Of a stretch of DNA of 34,853 nucleotides, positions 29,020-34,853 are shown piece after piece. The stretch comes from Candidatus Tayloriibacteriota bacterium (GTDB taxonomy: Bacteria > Patescibacteriota > Minisyncoccia > Phycocordibacterales > SIBU01), in the NCBI GenBank assembly GCA_009695005.1, contig SIBU01000009.1, positions 1 to 34,853 on the forward strand. The letters run 5' to 3'. A model generated the notes under the pieces. That model saw nothing but the letters and a program-made list of their open reading frames with translations. It did no database searches and had not been told where the DNA came from. Position numbers and translations under genes: made by a program. Each line of letters starts with the position of its first letter. Positions within the stretch are counted from its first letter, which is position 1.

Positions 29020-29091
29020 TCCCCGGTGGCGCAGTGGTAGCGCAGTCGCCTGTTAAGCGATTGGTCGTAGGTTCGAATCCTACCCGGGGAG
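29020..29091 (+). tRNA. tRNA-Asn (anticodon GTT)
   Basis: A full cloverleaf is read by eye: acceptor TCCCCGG/CCGGGGA, D-stem GCGC/GCGC, anticodon stem GTCGC/GCGAT with loop CTGTTAA, T-stem GTAGG/CCTAC with loop TTCGAAT, and discriminator G. The anticodon is GTT. CCA is not encoded. The 3' segment TCCTACCCGGGGAGC (29078-29092) recurs at 30293-30307 and 30470-30484, and as CTACCCGGGGAGCA at 31569-31582, so this tRNA may be an attachment site for mobile DNA. Confidence 0.95.
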
Positions 29092-29147
29092 CAATTGTAA
29101 ACCAAAGTAAAGTGTTAACTGGATATAATGTGTGGTAATCTTAAACT

Positions 29148-30080
29148 ATGAAACCAGACGCAGAGTCTATTCCTAATAAAATAAATGCACCCAAACAAAT
29201 AAGAGGCGGCTTTGATGACCGTGTTGTAGATTTCCATTTAATACATAACCAGAAAACAGAGGACGTAAGGGTATTTATTGATATTATTGATTCAAAACCA
29301 AATGATGTGATTCTTGATGGTATGGACGGATACGGAGCAGTTGCAAGAGAGATACTTGATACAACTGAGCCAAAAGGTTTTCAGCCAGAAATATACACTG
29401 TAGATGAGAGTGTTGTGCAGGTTGAAAGAGCCCGACAAAACATGCCTGATGTTCAAGAGGACCATTTAGTTCAGGCTGACATAAGAAATATGCCATTTGA
29501 AGATAAAAAGTTTAATACTGTTATTATTAAAATGGGAATACACGAGCTTCCTAAGAGTGCTCAACCAGATATTTTAAAAGAAGTGTCTAGAGTTTTGAAG
29601 CCAGGGGGTAAATTTGTTACTTGGGAACTTTCATTCCCTGACGAAGCATCTCAAGTAATATTTCAAGATATAATAAGAAAGAAGGACGAACTGGCGGGAT
29701 TCAATAGATTAGTTGAAAATAGATATTTTCCTCGCCAAGATGAATTGTTAAAACTCTTTGCGGATGCGGGTTTTGAAAAAGTTGAGGTTGCACACAAGGT
29801 TGATGCAAAGTTGTCTATGAGAGTACGTGAGCAGGAATTGGTTTCAAAAGAAAGGAAACAGATAATGTCTGAAGAAGGAACCCTAACAGCAGAAAAAGAA
29901 AAAGAACTTGCAGAACTTGGAAAAGAGCGATGTGACCAGCTTGTTGCTTTTATAAAGGAATACATGTCCAGAGTCCCAGAAAGTATAAGAAAACAGATGG
30001 AATATTATGAGTCGGAAAACGATACATTTCTTTCACCTAATAAGGATATTATACTGGGATACAAACCTGAAAGTGTATAA
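29148..30080 (+). CDS. Class I SAM-dependent methyltransferase (UbiE-like)
   Basis: A 310-residue protein with a Rossmann methyltransferase fold. Motif I is V-I-L-D57-G-M-D-G-Y-G63, the acidic post-I residue lies in IYTVDES, motif II is FNTVIIKMGIHEL, and motif III is RVLKPGGKFVTWELSF. The core resembles UbiE/COQ5-type enzymes. The C-terminal third (about 220-310) is helical and highly charged and is not part of the standard domain. The substrate is unknown; a quinone role is unlikely in a Patescibacterium. TATAAT (29124-29129) precedes the ATG by 18 bases. No SD. The gene ends just before the repeat array. Confidence 0.85.
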   Translation: MKPDAESIPNKINAPKQIRGGFDDRVVDFHLIHNQKTEDVRVFIDIIDSKPNDVILDGMDGYGAVAREILDTTEPKGFQPEIYTVDESVVQVERARQNMPDVQEDHLVQADIRNMPFEDKKFNTVIIKMGIHELPKSAQPDILKEVSRVLKPGGKFVTWELSFPDEASQVIFQDIIRKKDELAGFNRLVENRYFPRQDELLKLFADAGFEKVEVAHKVDAKLSMRVREQELVSKERKQIMSEEGTLTAEKEKELAELGKERCDQLVAFIKEYMSRVPESIRKQMEYYESENDTFLSPNKDIILGYKPESV

Positions 30081-30106
30081 ACTTCTCTAGTTCTCTCTTA
30101 ACACGT

Positions 30107-30148
30107 ATCCAATCCACAGTTCTGAACTCGTCCACGAGGGGGAGCAAA
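30107..30148 (+). repeat. Junction repeat type C, copy 1
   Basis: A 42-base stretch starting ATCCAAT and containing AGTTCTGAA and CGTCCACG, ending GGGGGAGCAAA. It recurs at 32206-32246 with several substitutions and one indel. This copy is not followed by a TTGACA; it leads directly into a terminator hairpin. Confidence 0.7.
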
Positions 30149-30181
30149 CAAACGCCGAAAGGCGTTTTTGTTTTGCTCCCC
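30139..30181 (+). terminator. Terminator after the methyltransferase, inside a larger palindrome
   Basis: AAACGCC-GAAA-GGCGTTT is an inner stem with a stable tetraloop and T tail. An outer 10-bp stem, GGGGAGCAAA (30139-30148) with TTTGCTCCCC (30172-30181), encloses it. The outer arms are the tRNA-Asn terminal sequence GGGGAGC and its complement. Confidence 0.8.
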
Positions 30182-30340
30182 TGAGGAAGCGTAAACCGCT
30201 TCCGTGTAGGATTCGAAGACCTTGCGAGTATATTTTGTGATTCCCTGAAACAAAATATCCACAAGGTGTACTGACCCAGTAGGGGTCGAATATCCTACCC
30301 GGGGAGCTCAGCAATCATTAACAAAAACAGCCTTATGGCA
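30164..30340 (+). repeat. 177-bp tandem repeat, copy 1 (junction type A)
   Basis: First of two adjacent copies differing at only two positions. In order it holds: hairpin GGAAGCG/CGCTTCC; GTAGGATTCGAAGACCTTG (30206-30224); a long imperfect palindrome (CCTTG...CAAGG around ATATTTTGT...ACAAAATAT); TCCTACCCGGGGAGC (30293-30307), identical to the tRNA-Asn 3' end; and the hairpin ACAAAAAC-A-GCC-TTAT-GGC-A-GTTTTTGT. It contains no ORF I can support. Confidence 0.95.
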
Positions 30341-30351
30341 GTTTTTGTTTT
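30319..30351 (+). terminator. Terminator-like hairpin in the first 177-bp repeat
   Basis: ACAAAAAC (30321-30328) pairs with GTTTTTGT (30341-30348), and GCC with GGC, around a TTAT loop with one A-A mismatch; a T run follows. The outer arms CCGGGGAGC (30299-30307) and GCTCCCCGG (30352-30360) pair too. The second repeat carries the same hairpin at 30498-30525. Confidence 0.6.
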
Positions 30352-30517
30352 GCTCCCCGGAGGAAGCGTAAACCGCTTCCGTGTAGGATTCGAAGACCTT
30401 GCGAGTATATTTTGTGATTCCCTGAAACAAAATATCCACAAGGTGTACTGACCCAGTAGAGGTCGAATATCCTACCCGGGGAGCTCAGCAATCATTAACA
30501 AAAACAGCCTTATGGCA
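30341..30517 (+). repeat. 177-bp tandem repeat, copy 2 (junction type A)
   Basis: Same content as copy 1 with two substitutions (CTCCCCG for CTCCCCT; TAGAGG for TAGGGG). The tRNA-Asn-identical end lies at 30470-30484. The near identity means a recent duplication. A third partial repeat starts at 30518 and then diverges. Confidence 0.95.
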
Positions 30518-30539
30518 GTTTTTGTTTTGACCTCCCCGT

Positions 30540-30639
30540 GTAGAATTCGAAGACCTTGAGTATATCGCACGGAGCAAAGCGAGTACGATACGAAACCTGT
30601 ACCGTCCATGTAATGGAAGAACACCCTGCTCCCGGAGCA
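30540..30639 (+). repeat. Junction type A variant, copy 3
   Basis: Begins GTAGAATTCGAAGACCTTG (30540-30558), like the 177-bp repeats, then carries a different middle shared with 31483-31582: ATCGCACGGAGC, GCGAGTACGAT, and hairpin TCCAT-GTA-ATGGA (30605-30617). The end is TGCTCC-C-GGAGCA, a palindrome, in place of the tRNA end. A promoter follows after 12 bases. Confidence 0.85.
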
Positions 30640-30651
30640 CTGAAAATATCC

Positions 30652-30680
30652 TTGACTGGTAAGGTTATTTTTTCTAGAAT
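30652..30680 (+). promoter_or_regulatory. Promoter of cassette gene 1
   Basis: TTGACT (30652-30657), 17 bases, TAGAAT (30675-30680). The ATG at 30691 is 10 bases after the -10 box, so the leader is about 3-4 bases. Confidence 0.75.
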
Positions 30681-30690
30681 ATTTATATTA

Positions 30691-31290
30691 ATGAAAAACT
30701 CAGTTTTATCTAAATATAAAATCATCTGGTTACTATTTTTTGTATTGATTGTCATACCTTATATTTATCTTTTCATTTTGTCCTATAGCAGACTGAGTGA
30801 AGGTAATCGTCTGCTTTATGGACCATACGACCAATGTAAGGAATGTATTAGTAAGGGTGAATCTAATTATACATGTGCCATGAAAGTAGCTGATAATGAG
30901 GCATACAACTTTGTAGACAGTAATAAGCGGAAACAAGATGATAAACTTGTGATACAGTCACGAACTCAAAATTTGATTAGAAAATGTTCCACAGAAAGTT
31001 TAGAAAACTTAACACAGGACATATATCTTAATATTTCAAAAGAAAGAGGTCGTGATAATTCTACAATTGATGAAGTAAGAAAAGCGTGTCTGAATCCTAA
31101 GGCTGCAATTAATGAGTTTTCCGAAAAAGAAACGAGTGATTCAATTTGTCATTTTTCTTCATTAGAAAATATGCAAGGAAAAGCGTGGCCTCGACCCAGT
31201 AAGGCAGAAATATTTTTTCAGGCAGCATTTGAGCCAATATCATTATTTATAATATTTGTTGCTTTATTTCTTGGATTTGGAGGACATTAG
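30691..31290 (+). CDS. Unrecognised membrane protein with cysteine-rich middle (cassette gene 1)
   Basis: A 199-residue protein with two membrane segments, about residues 11-32 and 176-195, and a polar middle of about 140 residues with six or so cysteines (CKEC, C in NYTCAM, RKC, KAC, SIC). If the middle is outside the cytoplasm, these could form disulphides. No family recognised. I start it at the ATG at 30691, just after the promoter; an in-frame ATG at 30556 lies inside the repeat element upstream and is not credible. It has low GC and no SD, unlike the other cassette genes. It lies between two type A junction repeats, and no strong terminator follows. Confidence 0.65.
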   Translation: MKNSVLSKYKIIWLLFFVLIVIPYIYLFILSYSRLSEGNRLLYGPYDQCKECISKGESNYTCAMKVADNEAYNFVDSNKRKQDDKLVIQSRTQNLIRKCSTESLENLTQDIYLNISKERGRDNSTIDEVRKACLNPKAAINEFSEKETSDSICHFSSLENMQGKAWPRPSKAEIFFQAAFEPISLFIIFVALFLGFGGH

Positions 31291-31455
31291 TAACTTAATC
31301 TTAGCGAAACTTTCAACTCTTCCTTACTCACCACAATCTCTTCTCCCCACTTCCATAGTTCAGAAATCCAGCGTAGTTGCCGCTAATTGACCGTCCCGTC
31401 TCTCAATGGCCGGTTTTCCTTTACCTAAAACAGGTTCTAATATTCTCTATCAAGC

Positions 31456-31582
31456 GGGGCAAAGCATCGAAATGCTTTGAGAGTAGGATTCGAAGACCTT
31501 GAGCATATCGCACGGAGCGAAGCGAGTACGATGCGAAAAGTGTACCGTTCATGTAATGAAAGAAACTTCTACCCGGGGAGCA
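31456..31582 (+). repeat. Junction type A variant, copy 4
   Basis: Contains hairpin CAAAGCAT-CGAA-ATGCTTTG, GTAGGATTCGAAGACCTTG (31483-31501), the same middle as the copy at 30540, hairpin TTCAT-GTA-ATGAA (31548-31560), and the tRNA-Asn-like end CTACCCGGGGAGCA (31569-31582). A -35 box begins 5 bases later. The stretch 31291-31455 before it holds no gene; a weak ACCG/CGGT hairpin with a TTTTCC tail near 31390-31422 may end gene 1. Confidence 0.85.
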
Positions 31583-31587
31583 CACAT

Positions 31588-31615
31588 TTGACAAAAATAT
31601 ATTCTATGACATGAT
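31588..31615 (+). promoter_or_regulatory. Promoter of cassette gene 2
   Basis: TTGACA (31588-31593), 16 bases, CATGAT (31610-31615). Transcription would start near 31621, exactly where the structured leader begins. Confidence 0.65.
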
Positions 31616-31620
31616 TGAAA

Positions 31621-31712
31621 TAGACTTAACCTTCTCAATCCAGAGACAGTGATAAAAACTTGTTGATACAAGCACTTGTGGAAATGATTGTCATTTCCTA
31701 GAAGTAAGTCTA
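31621..31712 (+). promoter_or_regulatory. Structured 5' leader, riboswitch-like multi-stem candidate
   Basis: A closing stem TAGACTTA (31621-31628) with TAAGTCTA (31705-31712) encloses three hairpins: TCTC/GAGA (31633-31646), CTTGT-TGAT-ACAAG (31659-31672) and GGAAATGA-TTG-TCATTTCC (31680-31698). AAAAAGG and the ATG follow straight after the closing stem. The layout is that of a cis-regulatory RNA, but I do not match it to a known riboswitch class. Confidence 0.5.
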
Positions 31713-31722
31713 AAAAGGTAAA

Positions 31723-32106
31723 ATGAAAGTACGCATATACGCAGGCATCGTTCTCACTGGCCCAACACAAGCAGGTGGAACGGAAATCGAAACTGATGAT
31801 GAAATGATCTGGGTCGACTGCTCACTTCCAGCACTCCCCCGTATTGGTGAGATCGTGGAGCTTCATGACGCTGGCCAAAATTTTGCGACAGCCGCGACTG
31901 TGGAAGGCGTGAACTGGTTTCCTGACGAAAACAAGACTAATGTCTTCTTTCCTGTGGTCTACCTTGAAAAAGACGACTACTTCGACAAGAAACACGGTTT
32001 CGCCCTCGGCACTACCGTGGAGGAAAAGCGCAAAGTGCTCAAGGAACTTGTGGTGAAGACTCACGACCGCAAACGCCACTGTCTCAAGTTTGATTGCAAC
32101 GGCTAA
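31723..32106 (+). CDS. Unrecognised 127-residue protein (cassette gene 2)
   Basis: No family recognised. The protein is soluble and acidic. It begins with beta strand MKVRIYAGIVLTG, has an IRELHD-like hinge (PRIGEIVELHDAG), and ends with a basic segment and two cysteines (HDRKRHCLKFDCNG). The pattern could suit a small beta-barrel or a metal site, but I claim no function. AAGG lies 5-8 bases before the ATG. GC is higher than in core genes. It has its own promoter, structured leader and strong terminator, and lies between type A and type C junction repeats. Confidence 0.7.
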   Translation: MKVRIYAGIVLTGPTQAGGTEIETDDEMIWVDCSLPALPRIGEIVELHDAGQNFATAATVEGVNWFPDENKTNVFFPVVYLEKDDYFDKKHGFALGTTVEEKRKVLKELVVKTHDRKRHCLKFDCNG

Positions 32107-32125
32107 CAACTGATCGCCTCAACCA

Positions 32126-32167
32126 AAAATTCGCCTCAGCGCGACTCAAGGTTGGGGCGAATTTTTT
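32126..32167 (+). terminator. Terminator of cassette gene 2
   Basis: AAAATTCGCC (32126-32135) and GGCGAATTTT (32156-32165) form a 10-bp stem with a run of T. A second pairing, CCTCAACC with GGTTGGGG, overlaps it. Confidence 0.85.
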
Positions 32168-32205
32168 ATACAGAACTTAATTTCCCCAACTTTGTTTCGA
32201 CTAAA

Positions 32206-32246
32206 ATCCAATTCAGAGTTCTGAATACGTCCACGGGGGGGGCAAA
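32206..32246 (+). repeat. Junction repeat type C, copy 2
   Basis: Matches 30107-30148 (ATCCAAT, AGTTCTGAA, CGTCCACG, a G run and GCAAA). A -35 box begins at 32249, three bases after this repeat and 4 bases after its GCA. Confidence 0.7.
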
Positions 32247-32248
32247 GA

Positions 32249-32277
32249 TTGACATAATATGTTAGATATGATATTAT
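32249..32277 (+). promoter_or_regulatory. Promoter of cassette gene 3
   Basis: TTGACA (32249-32254), exactly 17 bases, TATTAT (32272-32277): close to the consensus. The leader to 32325 is about 40 bases. Confidence 0.85.
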
Positions 32278-32324
32278 GCAAATGAATCTTGGCACGGTAC
32301 ACCCCTTCACTAGAAGGAAGCTGA

Positions 32325-32753
32325 ATGACAGGATTTAAACAATTGGAGTTCATTGTGAGTATTATATCTAAATTGCTTAGCCTTATAAACAAACCCGCGA
32401 ACGAAAAACCCTTGATTTGTGTCTGTCAGGAAAATGATAGGGTCGGCATAATTCTTATGAGCGACTTCCTGAAAGCATCAGCAGCCTACTGGAAAAAATA
32501 CCAGAATGGCGACGAGGAATACGCTGACTGTAGAATGGATGCACGCACGGGAAATGTAATTCCTGTTCCAAGTGAAAAGCTCTTTATCTTCTACAAGGAC
32601 GCTTTCAATTTTGAAAGTTCCGATGATAGAGATGGCTTCAATAGCATCATGGAGCGTTGCTTGGCGCAAAGAGCAGTGTTTGAGGTTTACCATATCAACG
32701 ACTCTTCTGTTGGTCAAAAGGCACGCAAACACCTCTTTGGTGATGTTGAGTAA
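32325..32753 (+). CDS. Unrecognised 142-residue protein (cassette gene 3a)
   Basis: No family recognised. The first 22 residues are hydrophobic and could be an anchor or just an amphipathic helix; the rest is soluble, mixed alpha/beta, with a few cysteines. GAAGGAAG lies just before the ATG. It shares a transcript with the 54-residue gene that follows 60 bases later, and a terminator ends both. The SD-led start and higher GC separate it from the core genes. Confidence 0.7.
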   Translation: MTGFKQLEFIVSIISKLLSLINKPANEKPLICVCQENDRVGIILMSDFLKASAAYWKKYQNGDEEYADCRMDARTGNVIPVPSEKLFIFYKDAFNFESSDDRDGFNSIMERCLAQRAVFEVYHINDSSVGQKARKHLFGDVE

Positions 32754-32813
32754 AAATTTACCAATTTTATGTCTAAATTGGAAAGCCCCGAGATAACATC
32801 AAAAGGATAAAAC

Positions 32814-32978
32814 ATGTATAAAGTATTCGGCTACGATATGATGTGTGTTGACTATTCATACACATTCGACAGTTTCATTGAAGCCGTCAAATGCTTCATC
32901 GAACTAAGCAGACTTCCAGATGTCGTGTTCATCAATGGTGTTTCTACCAAAGTCGAACAAGCCATCAATTGGAAGTGA
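32814..32978 (+). CDS. Small 54-residue protein (cassette gene 3b)
   Basis: A short ORF reading MYKVFGYDMMCVDYSY at the start and ending AINWK. AAAGGA lies 6-7 bases before the ATG. The protein looks like one beta-hairpin plus helices (DSFIEAVKCFIELS), a layout seen in small single-domain proteins, with no recognisable family. A strong terminator follows 16 bases after the stop, which supports a real gene. It is co-directional with gene 3a and has no separate promoter. Confidence 0.65.
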   Translation: MYKVFGYDMMCVDYSYTFDSFIEAVKCFIELSRLPDVVFINGVSTKVEQAINWK

Positions 32979-32994
32979 AAAATGAACCATACAC

Positions 32995-33037
32995 CCGCCT
33001 CCGAGAGAACCAAATTCTTCGGAAGGCGGTTTTTTTA
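32995..33037 (+). terminator. Terminator of cassette genes 3a-3b
   Basis: CCGCCT-CCGA pairs with TCGG-AA-GGCGG around a 14-base loop, followed by seven or eight T. Confidence 0.85.
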
Positions 33038-33103
33038 TTCTCAATTACGATACTGACGATATATTCCTTACACTAAAGACAATAGGTACTTCACTTCCTG
33101 ATG

Positions 33104-33171
33104 CATAGTCTCTACATCCCCTATCGCACTACCCCAATCATAGGTTCGAAAGCTGTCCTGCCAGGCGAGCA
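33104..33171 (+). repeat. 68-bp junction repeat (type B), copy 1
   Basis: Runs from CATAGTCTCTACATCCCC to CCAGGCGAGCA. It contains CTATCGCACTACCCC, GGTTCGAAAGC with the palindrome TTCGAA, and CCTGCCAGG, another palindrome. Copies 2 and 3 have the same length with no indels. Only this 68-bp core is shared by all three. A -35 box starts 1 base later. The stretch 33038-33103 holds nothing I can identify. Confidence 0.95.
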
Positions 33172-33172
33172 T

Positions 33173-33201
33173 TTGACATAATTTAATTTTAATGTTAGTT
33201 T
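33173..33201 (+). promoter_or_regulatory. Promoter of cassette gene 4
   Basis: TTGACA (33173-33178), 17 bases, TAGTTT (33196-33201), a weak -10 box. The leader is about 50 bases. Confidence 0.65.
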
Positions 33202-33259
33202 CTTATTGGAACCAGGCTACACCTGATCACTGTTCCAAAACAATCAACTAAGGAGAAGT

Positions 33260-33703
33260 ATGAATTGGTTTTCAAAACCCTTCTCGCCTTCTGAGGTCGA
33301 GAAACTGGATGGTGAGACTTTTAGAGCGGCGTATGGACGAGTGTTAAATAATTTTTACTGCTGGTTCCCTATGGGCAACACTCCCCACAAGCACAACAAT
33401 CCGTTAGGTCTTTACCGCACAGTATTTACCAAAAGAGACACCGTAAGCCGAGCTAAGATGTGCGAAAACGAAAAGCACCGCTTTAGCGAAAAAGCTGCGA
33501 ATCAGACGACGAATGAAAAGTTTGATAGTTTTGATGCCTGTGTTAGAGAAATGGATATTCCCGTGGCGACCCTCTCGGAGACAATAAACCGCGCATTCGG
33601 GGAAAGGAAAGAAGAGAACTTTGAGCTCTTGTGGAATTTAATGATTCCTATTTACATCGAACTGCGAAAGCGAGGGTATAGTCCAGCCGATATAACAAGT
33701 TAA
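33260..33703 (+). CDS. Unrecognised 147-residue protein (cassette gene 4)
   Basis: No family recognised. A soluble, mostly helical protein with a His/Asn-rich stretch (GNTPHKHNNPLG) near residues 39-50 and a second helical half ending with YIELRKRGYSPADITS. AAGGAGAA lies just before the ATG, a strong SD. It has its own promoter and terminator and lies between copies 1 and 2 of the 68-bp repeat. Confidence 0.75.
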   Translation: MNWFSKPFSPSEVEKLDGETFRAAYGRVLNNFYCWFPMGNTPHKHNNPLGLYRTVFTKRDTVSRAKMCENEKHRFSEKAANQTTNEKFDSFDACVREMDIPVATLSETINRAFGERKEENFELLWNLMIPIYIELRKRGYSPADITS

Positions 33704-33707
33704 CACT

Positions 33708-33743
33708 CGCACTACGCCCTAACCGTAGGCGGGTTTTTCTTTT
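33708..33743 (+). terminator. Terminator of cassette gene 4
   Basis: CGC-A-CTACG (33708-33716) pairs with CGTAG-GCG (33724-33731), with one bulged A, followed by TTTTTCTTTT. It is the start of the 147-bp unit repeated at 34211. Confidence 0.75.
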
Positions 33744-33854
33744 ACTTAAATCAAACCAAAGCTACTAAATGTTTAATTTCCCTCATCGTAGTCTCTACAT
33801 CCCCTATCGCACTACCCCATTCAAAGGTTCGAAAGCTGTCCTGCCAGGCGAGCA
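33708..33854 (+). repeat. 147-bp repeat unit (terminator plus 68-bp type B junction), copy 2
   Basis: The block from the terminator through AAACCAAAGCTACTAAATG to the 68-bp junction (33787-33854) is repeated at 34211-34357 with the same length and few substitutions. The 3' end of one cassette and the junction were duplicated together. Confidence 0.93.
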
Positions 33855-33857
33855 AGT

Positions 33858-33886
33858 TTGACATTATTACAATCATGTGCTATCTT
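33858..33886 (+). promoter_or_regulatory. Promoter of cassette gene 5
   Basis: TTGACA (33858-33863), 17 bases, TATCTT (33881-33886). The leader holds a hairpin GTTGGC-TCGTA-GCCAAC (33905-33921). Confidence 0.75.
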
Positions 33887-33948
33887 CATTTATGAACAGC
33901 ACGCGTTGGCTCGTAGCCAACATAACAACAAGAAAGAAAGGTCTCTCC

Positions 33949-34170
33949 ATGCCTAGCTTAAAACAAATTTCAGCAACTCGAGATTGCTGTCTCAAGGTCG
34001 CGATAAAACTAAAGCGACAATTTCCAGATCTGAATCAATGTGCTCGAATTGTTCCGCAGTTCAATTACGTGCAGATTTTTTTCCACAAAAAATGGAGAGA
34101 GACGGCTCTCCCCCAGCAAATGGATGGTATTTCGATCCGTCTTTTTGACAACGACGGAAGACCCTTATAG
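33949..34170 (+). CDS. Unrecognised 73-residue protein (cassette gene 5)
   Basis: No family recognised. Basic N-terminal half with a helical region (CCLKVAIKLKRQF), then a short beta-rich end (VQIFFHKKW, ISIRLFDNDGR). The basic charge might suit nucleic acid binding, but this is a guess. I start at ATG 33949, with GAAAGG about 8 bases upstream; an in-frame ATG at 33892 lies on the predicted transcription start and upstream of the leader hairpin. It lies between 68-bp repeat copies 2 and 3. Confidence 0.6.
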   Translation: MPSLKQISATRDCCLKVAIKLKRQFPDLNQCARIVPQFNYVQIFFHKKWRETALPQQMDGISIRLFDNDGRPL

Positions 34171-34208
34171 TGGCATTCGACCGTCATCTCTAAGGTATCA
34201 TTTCATGA

Positions 34209-34246
34209 CCCGCACTACGTCCTAACCGTCGGCGGGTTTTTCTTTT
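34209..34246 (+). terminator. Terminator of cassette gene 5
   Basis: CCCGC (34209-34213) pairs with GCGGG (34232-34236), followed by TTTTTCTTTT. The inner pairing of the equivalent terminator at 33708 is partly lost here. Confidence 0.75.
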
Positions 34247-34357
34247 ACTTAAATAAAACCAAAGCTACTAAATGTTTAATTTCCCTCATCATAGTCTCCA
34301 TATCCCCTATCGCACTACCCCATTCAAAGGTTCGAAAGCTGTCCTGCCAAGCGAGCA
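34211..34357 (+). repeat. 147-bp repeat unit (terminator plus 68-bp type B junction), copy 3
   Basis: Same unit as 33708-33854; the 68-bp core lies at 34290-34357 and ends CCAAGCGAGCA. A -35 box begins 4 bases later. Confidence 0.93.
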
Positions 34358-34361
34358 TCAG

Positions 34362-34390
34362 TTGACAAATTATATTTTATCTGCTATTAT
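34362..34390 (+). promoter_or_regulatory. Promoter of cassette gene 6
   Basis: TTGACA (34362-34367), exactly 17 bases, TATTAT (34385-34390). An overlapping TATAAT begins at 34388. This is the best promoter in the array. Confidence 0.85.
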
Positions 34391-34470
34391 AATAGTGGTA
34401 GCTTTTTACTGGGTAGAGGCTCTGAAAGGAAGCCCTGGTGTCCCAACATAATACACCGAAGGATCAAAAA

Positions 34471-34707
34471 ATGAAATTAGGTTTGACAACTTACTACGAG
34501 GACGGCTCATCTGGAATCACCAAGATTAAGAAGCCGGCAGGGGCTCATCCTGATTCAATCATGGTGATAGCAGAAGGCATACTTGCAGCCGAAAAAACTG
34601 GCAAGCGGGTCTCGAAAATTGGGAGGTTAAAGGTAAATCCTTTTTCCAACCCGAAGACCGGATTGGTCATCGATGATAACCTGGTCACGCGAGGCATAAA
34701 TGGGTAA
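34471..34707 (+). CDS. Unrecognised 78-residue protein (cassette gene 6)
   Basis: No family recognised. A small basic protein starting MKLGLTTYYEDG and containing PAGAHPDSIMVIAEGILAAEKTGKRVSKIGRL. The centre looks like one helix flanked by strands. I chose ATG 34471 with AAGGA 7-8 bases upstream. A GTG at 34438 with AAGGAAG before it would add 11 residues, so the start is not certain. The remaining 34708-34853 shows no gene, repeat copy or terminator that I can support. Confidence 0.65.
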   Translation: MKLGLTTYYEDGSSGITKIKKPAGAHPDSIMVIAEGILAAEKTGKRVSKIGRLKVNPFSNPKTGLVIDDNLVTRGING

Positions 34708-34853
34708 ATGGGGACAGCCACCATTATCTTACTTTTAATGTGTTGTAGTAATTCACCGCTTCATTGGTCTACCTGGAGCTCGTAGCGTTGACTCAAGATG
34801 ATGTGTAAGTACCATTCGACTAACCCACCTTTCTTCGCCATATGGAACACCTT

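Follow-up and report, generated by a model that had tools for sequence, protein, structure and literature searches.

Genomic islands located at the 3΄ ends of tRNA and transfer-messenger RNA (tmRNA) genes are the subject of the Islander database (PMC4383910), and the closest published case to the one described here is that of the Dehalococcoides ssrA islands, where islands with the serine recombinase DsiB are stacked behind one gene (PMC3146451). In this work, we have analysed a stretch of 34853 bases (the window), which is the entire contig C19 of the Candidatus Tayloriibacteriota genome G000 (794 kb, 24 contigs, 89% complete). It carries an array of short promoter-gene-terminator modules separated by junction repeats of three families, A, B and C; since the window is a whole contig, the array is truncated at position 34853. 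A sequence-only reading had compared this array with integron cassettes, an observation that is partly confirmed as a whole, and had overlooked that the array sits 3΄ of a tRNA-Asn gene (29020–29092) and that the repeats contain the 3΄ end of this same tRNA. We consider it probable that tRNA-Asn is followed in the window by an integration hotspot, in which the main part is played by a non-autonomous family of elements (type B) that reside where tRNA and tmRNA genes end, on their 3΄ side.

As occurs in the tRNA and tmRNA islands, copies of the tRNA end mark boundaries in the window and several modules lie behind one gene, and in the relatives G001 and G033 a serine recombinase gene lies beside the end of the tRNA gene. 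Unlike these islands, the type B element is gene-free, has inverted and direct copies of the tRNA end and a conserved folded core, and is found behind 19 kinds of gene, tmRNA included, within one order. The REP and REPIN palindromes, moved by the Y1 HUH protein TnpA-REP (PMC3733652, PMC8266576), are similarly dispersed, non-coding and palindromic, with many copies per genome, and like the element are probably non-autonomous; type B, however, targets tRNA 3΄ ends, its copies contain the target sequence, and no Y1 transposase (PF01797) was found in the element-rich genomes G000, G001, G006, G013 and G034, which have 15–27 copies each. The element and the integron attC site are alike in principle, each being a folded site with a stem of two half-sites and a variable apical structure, and arrays of unrelated small genes are common to both systems. 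attC imitates attI, and the folded strand of the element would present a stem equal to the tRNA end; we draw this as an analogy and claim no membership. In contrast to integrons, no IntI was found in G000, the arms match tRNA ends, the modules have their own promoters and the sites are mostly cassette-free. That the junctions do not resemble attC had been correctly seen: no attC motif was found, and by eye the boundaries have none of the attC ends RYYYAAC/GTTRRRY, the junctions ending in ...GGGGAGCA or ...GGCGAGCA.

The stacked-island side of this locus is thus of a known kind, and the tRNA-keyed element family is in our view new and apparently undescribed; no description of it appears in the literature searched, which covered few subscription papers or preprints, and a prior description is possible. 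To our knowledge, no described element has arms matched to each tRNA. When nine element loci and the end of the window were compared with Rfam, tRNA alone scored above threshold, and phages and plasmids gave no blastn match to the element. An origin from phages or plasmids was accordingly rejected, the sole pattern match in IMG/VR lying inside an open reading frame (ORF) and having no covariance-model match.

The type B junction repeat and the 177-bp tandem repeat that precedes it are one structured element family, and the two tandem units and junctions B1 and B2 are all matched by the same covariance model, R1. Behind its tRNA, the unit starts with a terminator palindrome. The acceptor strand in reverse complement, a small hairpin (hp1) and the T-arm, also in reverse complement, come next, and the core is then followed by a direct copy of the 3΄ half of the T-arm with the acceptor strand. 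The core, a three-way junction, comprises helix P2, a GTACHG joint and the P3 hairpin, whose loop is GTA. The anchor tRNA and the parts of the element are arranged in the window as follows.

29020–29092, plus strand: tRNA-Asn (GTT), anchor of the array, whose 3΄ end, TTCGAATCCTACCCGGGGAGCA, is the sequence copied into the junctions.
30147–30181, plus strand: terminator palindrome X and reverse complement of the tRNA-Asn acceptor strand (TGCTCCCC).
30185–30203, plus strand: small hairpin hp1, interrupting the inverted tRNA arm.
30206–30217, plus strand: reverse complement of the tRNA-Asn T-arm (GTAGGATTCGAA), an arm of P1.
30218–30287, plus strand: type 1 core with P2, GTACTG joint and P3 hairpin with GTA loop, with covariation (covariance-model match 30203–30305, 87.7 bits).
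30288–30307, plus strand: direct copy of the tRNA-Asn 3΄ end (GAATATCCTACCCGGGGAGC).
30341–30517, plus strand: second tandem 177-bp unit, 99% identical, with the element core at 30380–30482.
30537–30640, plus strand: junction B1, a third element copy with a degenerate right arm (CCCTGCTCCCGGAGCA), 69.1 bits.
31480–31583, plus strand: junction B2, an element copy ending in CTTCTACCCGGGGAGCA, 82.6 bits.

The tandem units end in GGTCGAATATCCTACCCGGGGAGC. Covariation reached 0.542, versus 0.109 in shuffled and at most 0.076 in slid controls, with pairing at 95.8%, in an alignment of 117 sequences that was fitted to the model itself, which favours the result. A second structured core (type 2: CGGCGGAG ... 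GAGCCGGTGCCCAG ... GTCGCGGGC) shows compensatory changes at 21 of 31 predicted pairs among 11 sequences. Units are found in tandem elsewhere too: locus L042 (G015:C35, 311–703, minus strand) has three, with different cores and nearly the same tRNA arms, and in G006 (L050, L051, L052) some units hold two fused cores, for example at L052:8542 and 8602.

The search for the type B repeat in relatives, which the sequence-only reading had proposed, found it many times over, at scattered positions, in other genomes of the order, but these copies stand mostly behind tRNA genes and without a cassette. G000 itself has 22–23 copies matching R1. The element is present in 25 of the 41 genomes of the order sampled, at up to 35 copies each, and seven of the 287 genomes of a phylum-wide sample were positive, all of the same order; none of the sampled genomes outside it has the element. 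Among the matches listed, the exact core pattern came from Nomura-, Zambryski-, Taylor- and Kaiserbacteria, unclassified Patescibacteria or uncultured bacteria. The keying to tRNA genes is evident from the 179 non-redundant copies with room upstream: a tRNA or tmRNA gene lies upstream on the same strand within 600 bp in 112 of them and within 250 bp in 101, with 12 divergent and four convergent. Among 75 close element-tRNA pairs, 34 have a direct copy that agrees with the element's own tRNA over all 13 bases compared, against about 0% for other tRNAs; a complete match to the own tRNA is seen for the inverted T-stem in 47 (others, 1.4%) and for the inverted acceptor in 24 (others, 0.6%). In G035 the arms are similar, and not equal, to the end of its tRNA-Asn. 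The tmRNA gene of G000 is also trailed by an element (L135:468-572, G000:C12), with arms matching the tmRNA 3΄ end. The joint preceding the right arm holds a common string, AGCGTACTCACGATC / AAGCGTACTCGCGGTC, in elements of L303 and L290 that have no tRNA nearby.

Comparison of orthologous tRNA genes in three genomes of the same genus, where an inverted T-arm was found downstream of 15 of 33, 15 of 32 and 10 of 35 tRNAs examined, shows turnover of the element from species to species, suggesting that it is mobile and linked to the ends of tRNAs. tRNA-Asn is identical in the three genomes. Its site in G001 is empty, GGGGAGC|CAAATAGG with no insert, and in G003 it is filled, GGGGAGC being followed by an element and then by CCTACCCGGGGAGC|CAGATAGG, so that the tRNA end is duplicated. 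Similarly, tRNA-Arg(ccg), which has conserved genes on either side, is an empty site in G000 and a filled one in G001. At tRNA-Arg(gcg), again between conserved neighbours, the core itself is exchanged, being type 1 in G000, type 2 in G001 and type 2b in G003.

The three junction families, recovered independently by a repeat search, are real, with identities of 90% over 82 bp for B, 86% over 36 bp for A, and 95% and 63% over the 150 bp of C. They are more than one kind of site, rather than a single cassette site. Those of types A and C are placed as follows.

30107–30146, plus strand: junction A1, GTTCTGAAC..GTCCACGAGGGGGAGCA, conserved behind tRNA-Asn in G001 and G014 and read as an attR-like scar of a tRNA-Asn serine-recombinase island.
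32206–32245, plus strand: junction A2.
33104–33171, plus strand: junction C1.
33705–33854, plus strand: 150-bp repeat made of a terminator region and junction C2.
34208–34357, plus strand: 150-bp repeat, 95% identical, made of a terminator region and junction C3.

Like tRNA-Asn itself, junctions of types A and B terminate in GGGGAGCA or close variants of it, so that the 3΄ end of the tRNA recurs as a boundary repeat. Six instances of the type A pattern exist in the 3.17 Mb of DNA fetched, all of them behind tRNA-Asn, and G014 has three successive type A sites there with different modules between them; the 83 matches of the pattern in IMG/VR are ascribed to chance, given its shortness. In G001, the gene of a large serine recombinase of 503 aa ends inside tRNA-Asn and is followed in order by a restriction-modification pair, an AbiEii gene, a type A site, a terminator palindrome and an element. 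G033, from another family, has a recombinase 53% identical to that of G001 whose gene likewise ends inside tRNA-Asn; the window has no recombinase gene adjoining its tRNA-Asn. Type A thus looks like the right-hand scar of serine-recombinase islands at tRNA-Asn. G000 may possess a second island remnant in L139:6184-8700 (G000:C16), which holds, in a row, a type 2 core, a fragment of a serine recombinase of the tRNA-Asn type, an ABC transporter and a half site resembling type A. Type C is a local repeat, confined to G000 except for one 18-bp match in G002. A reading of it as the end of another G000 tRNA was rejected, none of the tRNAs found ending in CCTGCCAGGCGAGCA.

The remaining features of the array are its genes and promoters.

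29148–30080, plus strand: methyltransferase gene between tRNA-Asn and the first junction (Pfam PF01209, 3.2e-15), probable island cargo, absent from the equivalent place in G001.
30652–30680, plus strand: promoter of unit 1, TTGACT-17-TAGAAT.
30691–31290, plus strand: unit 1 gene, 199 aa, no family.
31588–31615, plus strand: promoter of unit 2.
31723–32106, plus strand: unit 2 gene, 127 aa, no family.
32249–32277, plus strand: promoter of unit 3, TTGACA-17-TATTAT.
32325–32978, plus strand: unit 3 genes, 142 aa and 54 aa, no family.
33260–33703, plus strand: unit 4 gene, 147 aa, no family.
33858–33886, plus strand: promoter of unit 5.
33892–34170, plus strand: unit 5 gene, 92 aa, no family.
34362–34390, plus strand: promoter of unit 6, TTGACA-17-TATTAT.
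34438–34707, plus strand: unit 6 gene, 89 aa, no family; the contig ends 146 bases further.

Much of what had been read from the letters alone holds: seven small ORFs lie in six units and in one direction, the TTGACW boxes stand 12, 5, 4, 1, 3 and 4 bases past the junction ends, and at the DNA level the genes between junctions, like the six units as a whole, are mutually unrelated, apart from the common type C tail. Other parts need correction. Each unit had been given a −35 and a −10 box; the TTGACW boxes are there, but the −10 boxes are weak in units 2 and 4. All junctions were said to end in GCA, and GAGCA-N(0-12)-TTGACW matches five of the six, the sixth (32206) ending in GGGGGGGCA; in the whole window this pattern has six matches versus 0.73 expected, and none of 100 shuffles reached at least six. 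Promoter-like sites are twice as numerous in the window as in shuffled sequence. Terminators had been claimed for five of the six units, a count that a strict scan reduces to one cassette-end hairpin (33712); by eye, a GC hairpin with a T-run is seen in four units (genes 2, 3b, 4 and 5). The seven small proteins gave no usable match in Pfam, PHROG, NCBIfam or PADLOC, no viral relatives were found for the two cassette genes for which they were sought, and no fetched locus contains relatives of the cassette genes. The terminator motif behind the second unit 3 gene (32814–32978) recurs in G035 (L057:7575-7970), where a TTGACA promoter, an ORF of 57 aa and the matching terminator come after an element; there was no other match in the fetched loci.

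How could such a locus arise? We propose that the element unit enters tRNA 3΄ ends as DNA. Probably a folded strand recombines there, with a stem that would imitate the double-stranded tRNA end, attC-like in principle, and with an enzyme supplied in trans. In the window, four type B units, the type A scars and the type C repeat would separate the short promoter-gene-terminator modules, most likely added one by one beside tRNA-end sequences (tandem accretion). The element helices contain 13 G-T pairs versus 7 A-C, whereas the tRNA stems of these genomes contain 97 versus 7 (Fisher p = 0.0017); the scarcity of G-T fits pairing at the DNA level, the counts being small. Retroviral-type copying of a mature tRNA was considered but not retained, because the arms run past the encoded end into the terminator and lack CCA. 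A dedicated tyrosine integrase, serine recombinase or Y1 transposase was rejected as mover, since numbers are uncorrelated with copies or the enzyme is absent.

Several observations weigh against the hotspot and its mobile element. For about 37% of copies, the 600 bp upstream contain no tRNA, and several sites scored as empty by threshold hold decayed copies. The same-genus genomes are separate species, so that the turnover seen is between species rather than insertion or excision between close strains. Genomes with more elements do not have correspondingly more tyrosine, serine or Y1 recombinases (Spearman −0.08 for tyrosine and −0.20 for large serine recombinases); PF00589, absent from G000 and mostly single in other genomes, is likewise uncorrelated with element number. 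Relatives of the window's cassette genes, which could attest to movement of these genes, were not found, and the proposal has to account for two arms that both match each tRNA, possibly through quasipalindrome correction, selection on pairing or templated insertion.

Could the elements instead be functional structured RNAs made by tRNA read-through, such as trailers controlling tRNA processing or termination, their turnover being ordinary gain and loss of RNA genes? Their position directly behind the gene and mostly on its strand, the strong covariation of type 1 and type 2 cores, and arms that could pair with the tRNA would all suit such a role. We nevertheless regard it as unlikely: G-U pairs are rare in element helices relative to tRNA stems, core types swap at the same tRNA, copies stand in tandem, about half of the tRNAs or fewer have an element, and there is no Rfam match. 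An integron-like system, with one recombinase moving promoter-gene-terminator cassettes at the junction repeats, is only partly supported and seems to us quite improbable. Shared junctions do enclose unrelated genes, a promoter directly follows the element in G035 too, and the block of A1, terminator and hairpin (30089–30223) is 86% identical in G001, a genome of the same genus and not a close strain, which has wholly different genes on both sides and none of the window's cassette genes. These are the constant junctions with variable DNA from which modular insertion had been read. Against this, the three junction types are unrelated, and a role of the junctions as dedicated cassette-recombination sites is not supported: type B is chiefly a tRNA-end element without cassettes, type A looks scar-like and type C is restricted to G000 but for its 18-bp match. 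The tyrosine recombinase suggested as cassette mover was sought in G000, whose genome has no PF00589 match; as had been stated, the window has no recombinase, and the large serine recombinases of G000 lie on other contigs. A further alternative, that duplication has spread repeats which are simply untranslated regions or terminators and play no part in recombination, would fit type C, which spans a terminator and a 5΄ region in three copies and in G000 only, but is highly improbable, as it leaves unexplained both the keying of type B to so many kinds of tRNA and tmRNA gene and its presence and absence at orthologous tRNAs.

What would an integration hotspot built on a tRNA-keyed element mean for these bacteria? 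Tentatively, the elements could form a new class of mobile DNA in Paceibacteria, with arms rewritten to match the host tRNA, interchangeable structured cores (1, 2 and 2b) and a role as landing platform for small, self-contained gene modules. If the proposal is true, one order of Patescibacteria has a site-specific family at one third to half of its tRNA genes in the genomes examined, with arms matched to each, and two conserved structured nucleic-acid families, absent from Rfam release 15, would be added to those known. The copying of target sequence into both arms would become a directly testable question of mechanism, and the finding would help to explain how reduced genomes keep variable islands.

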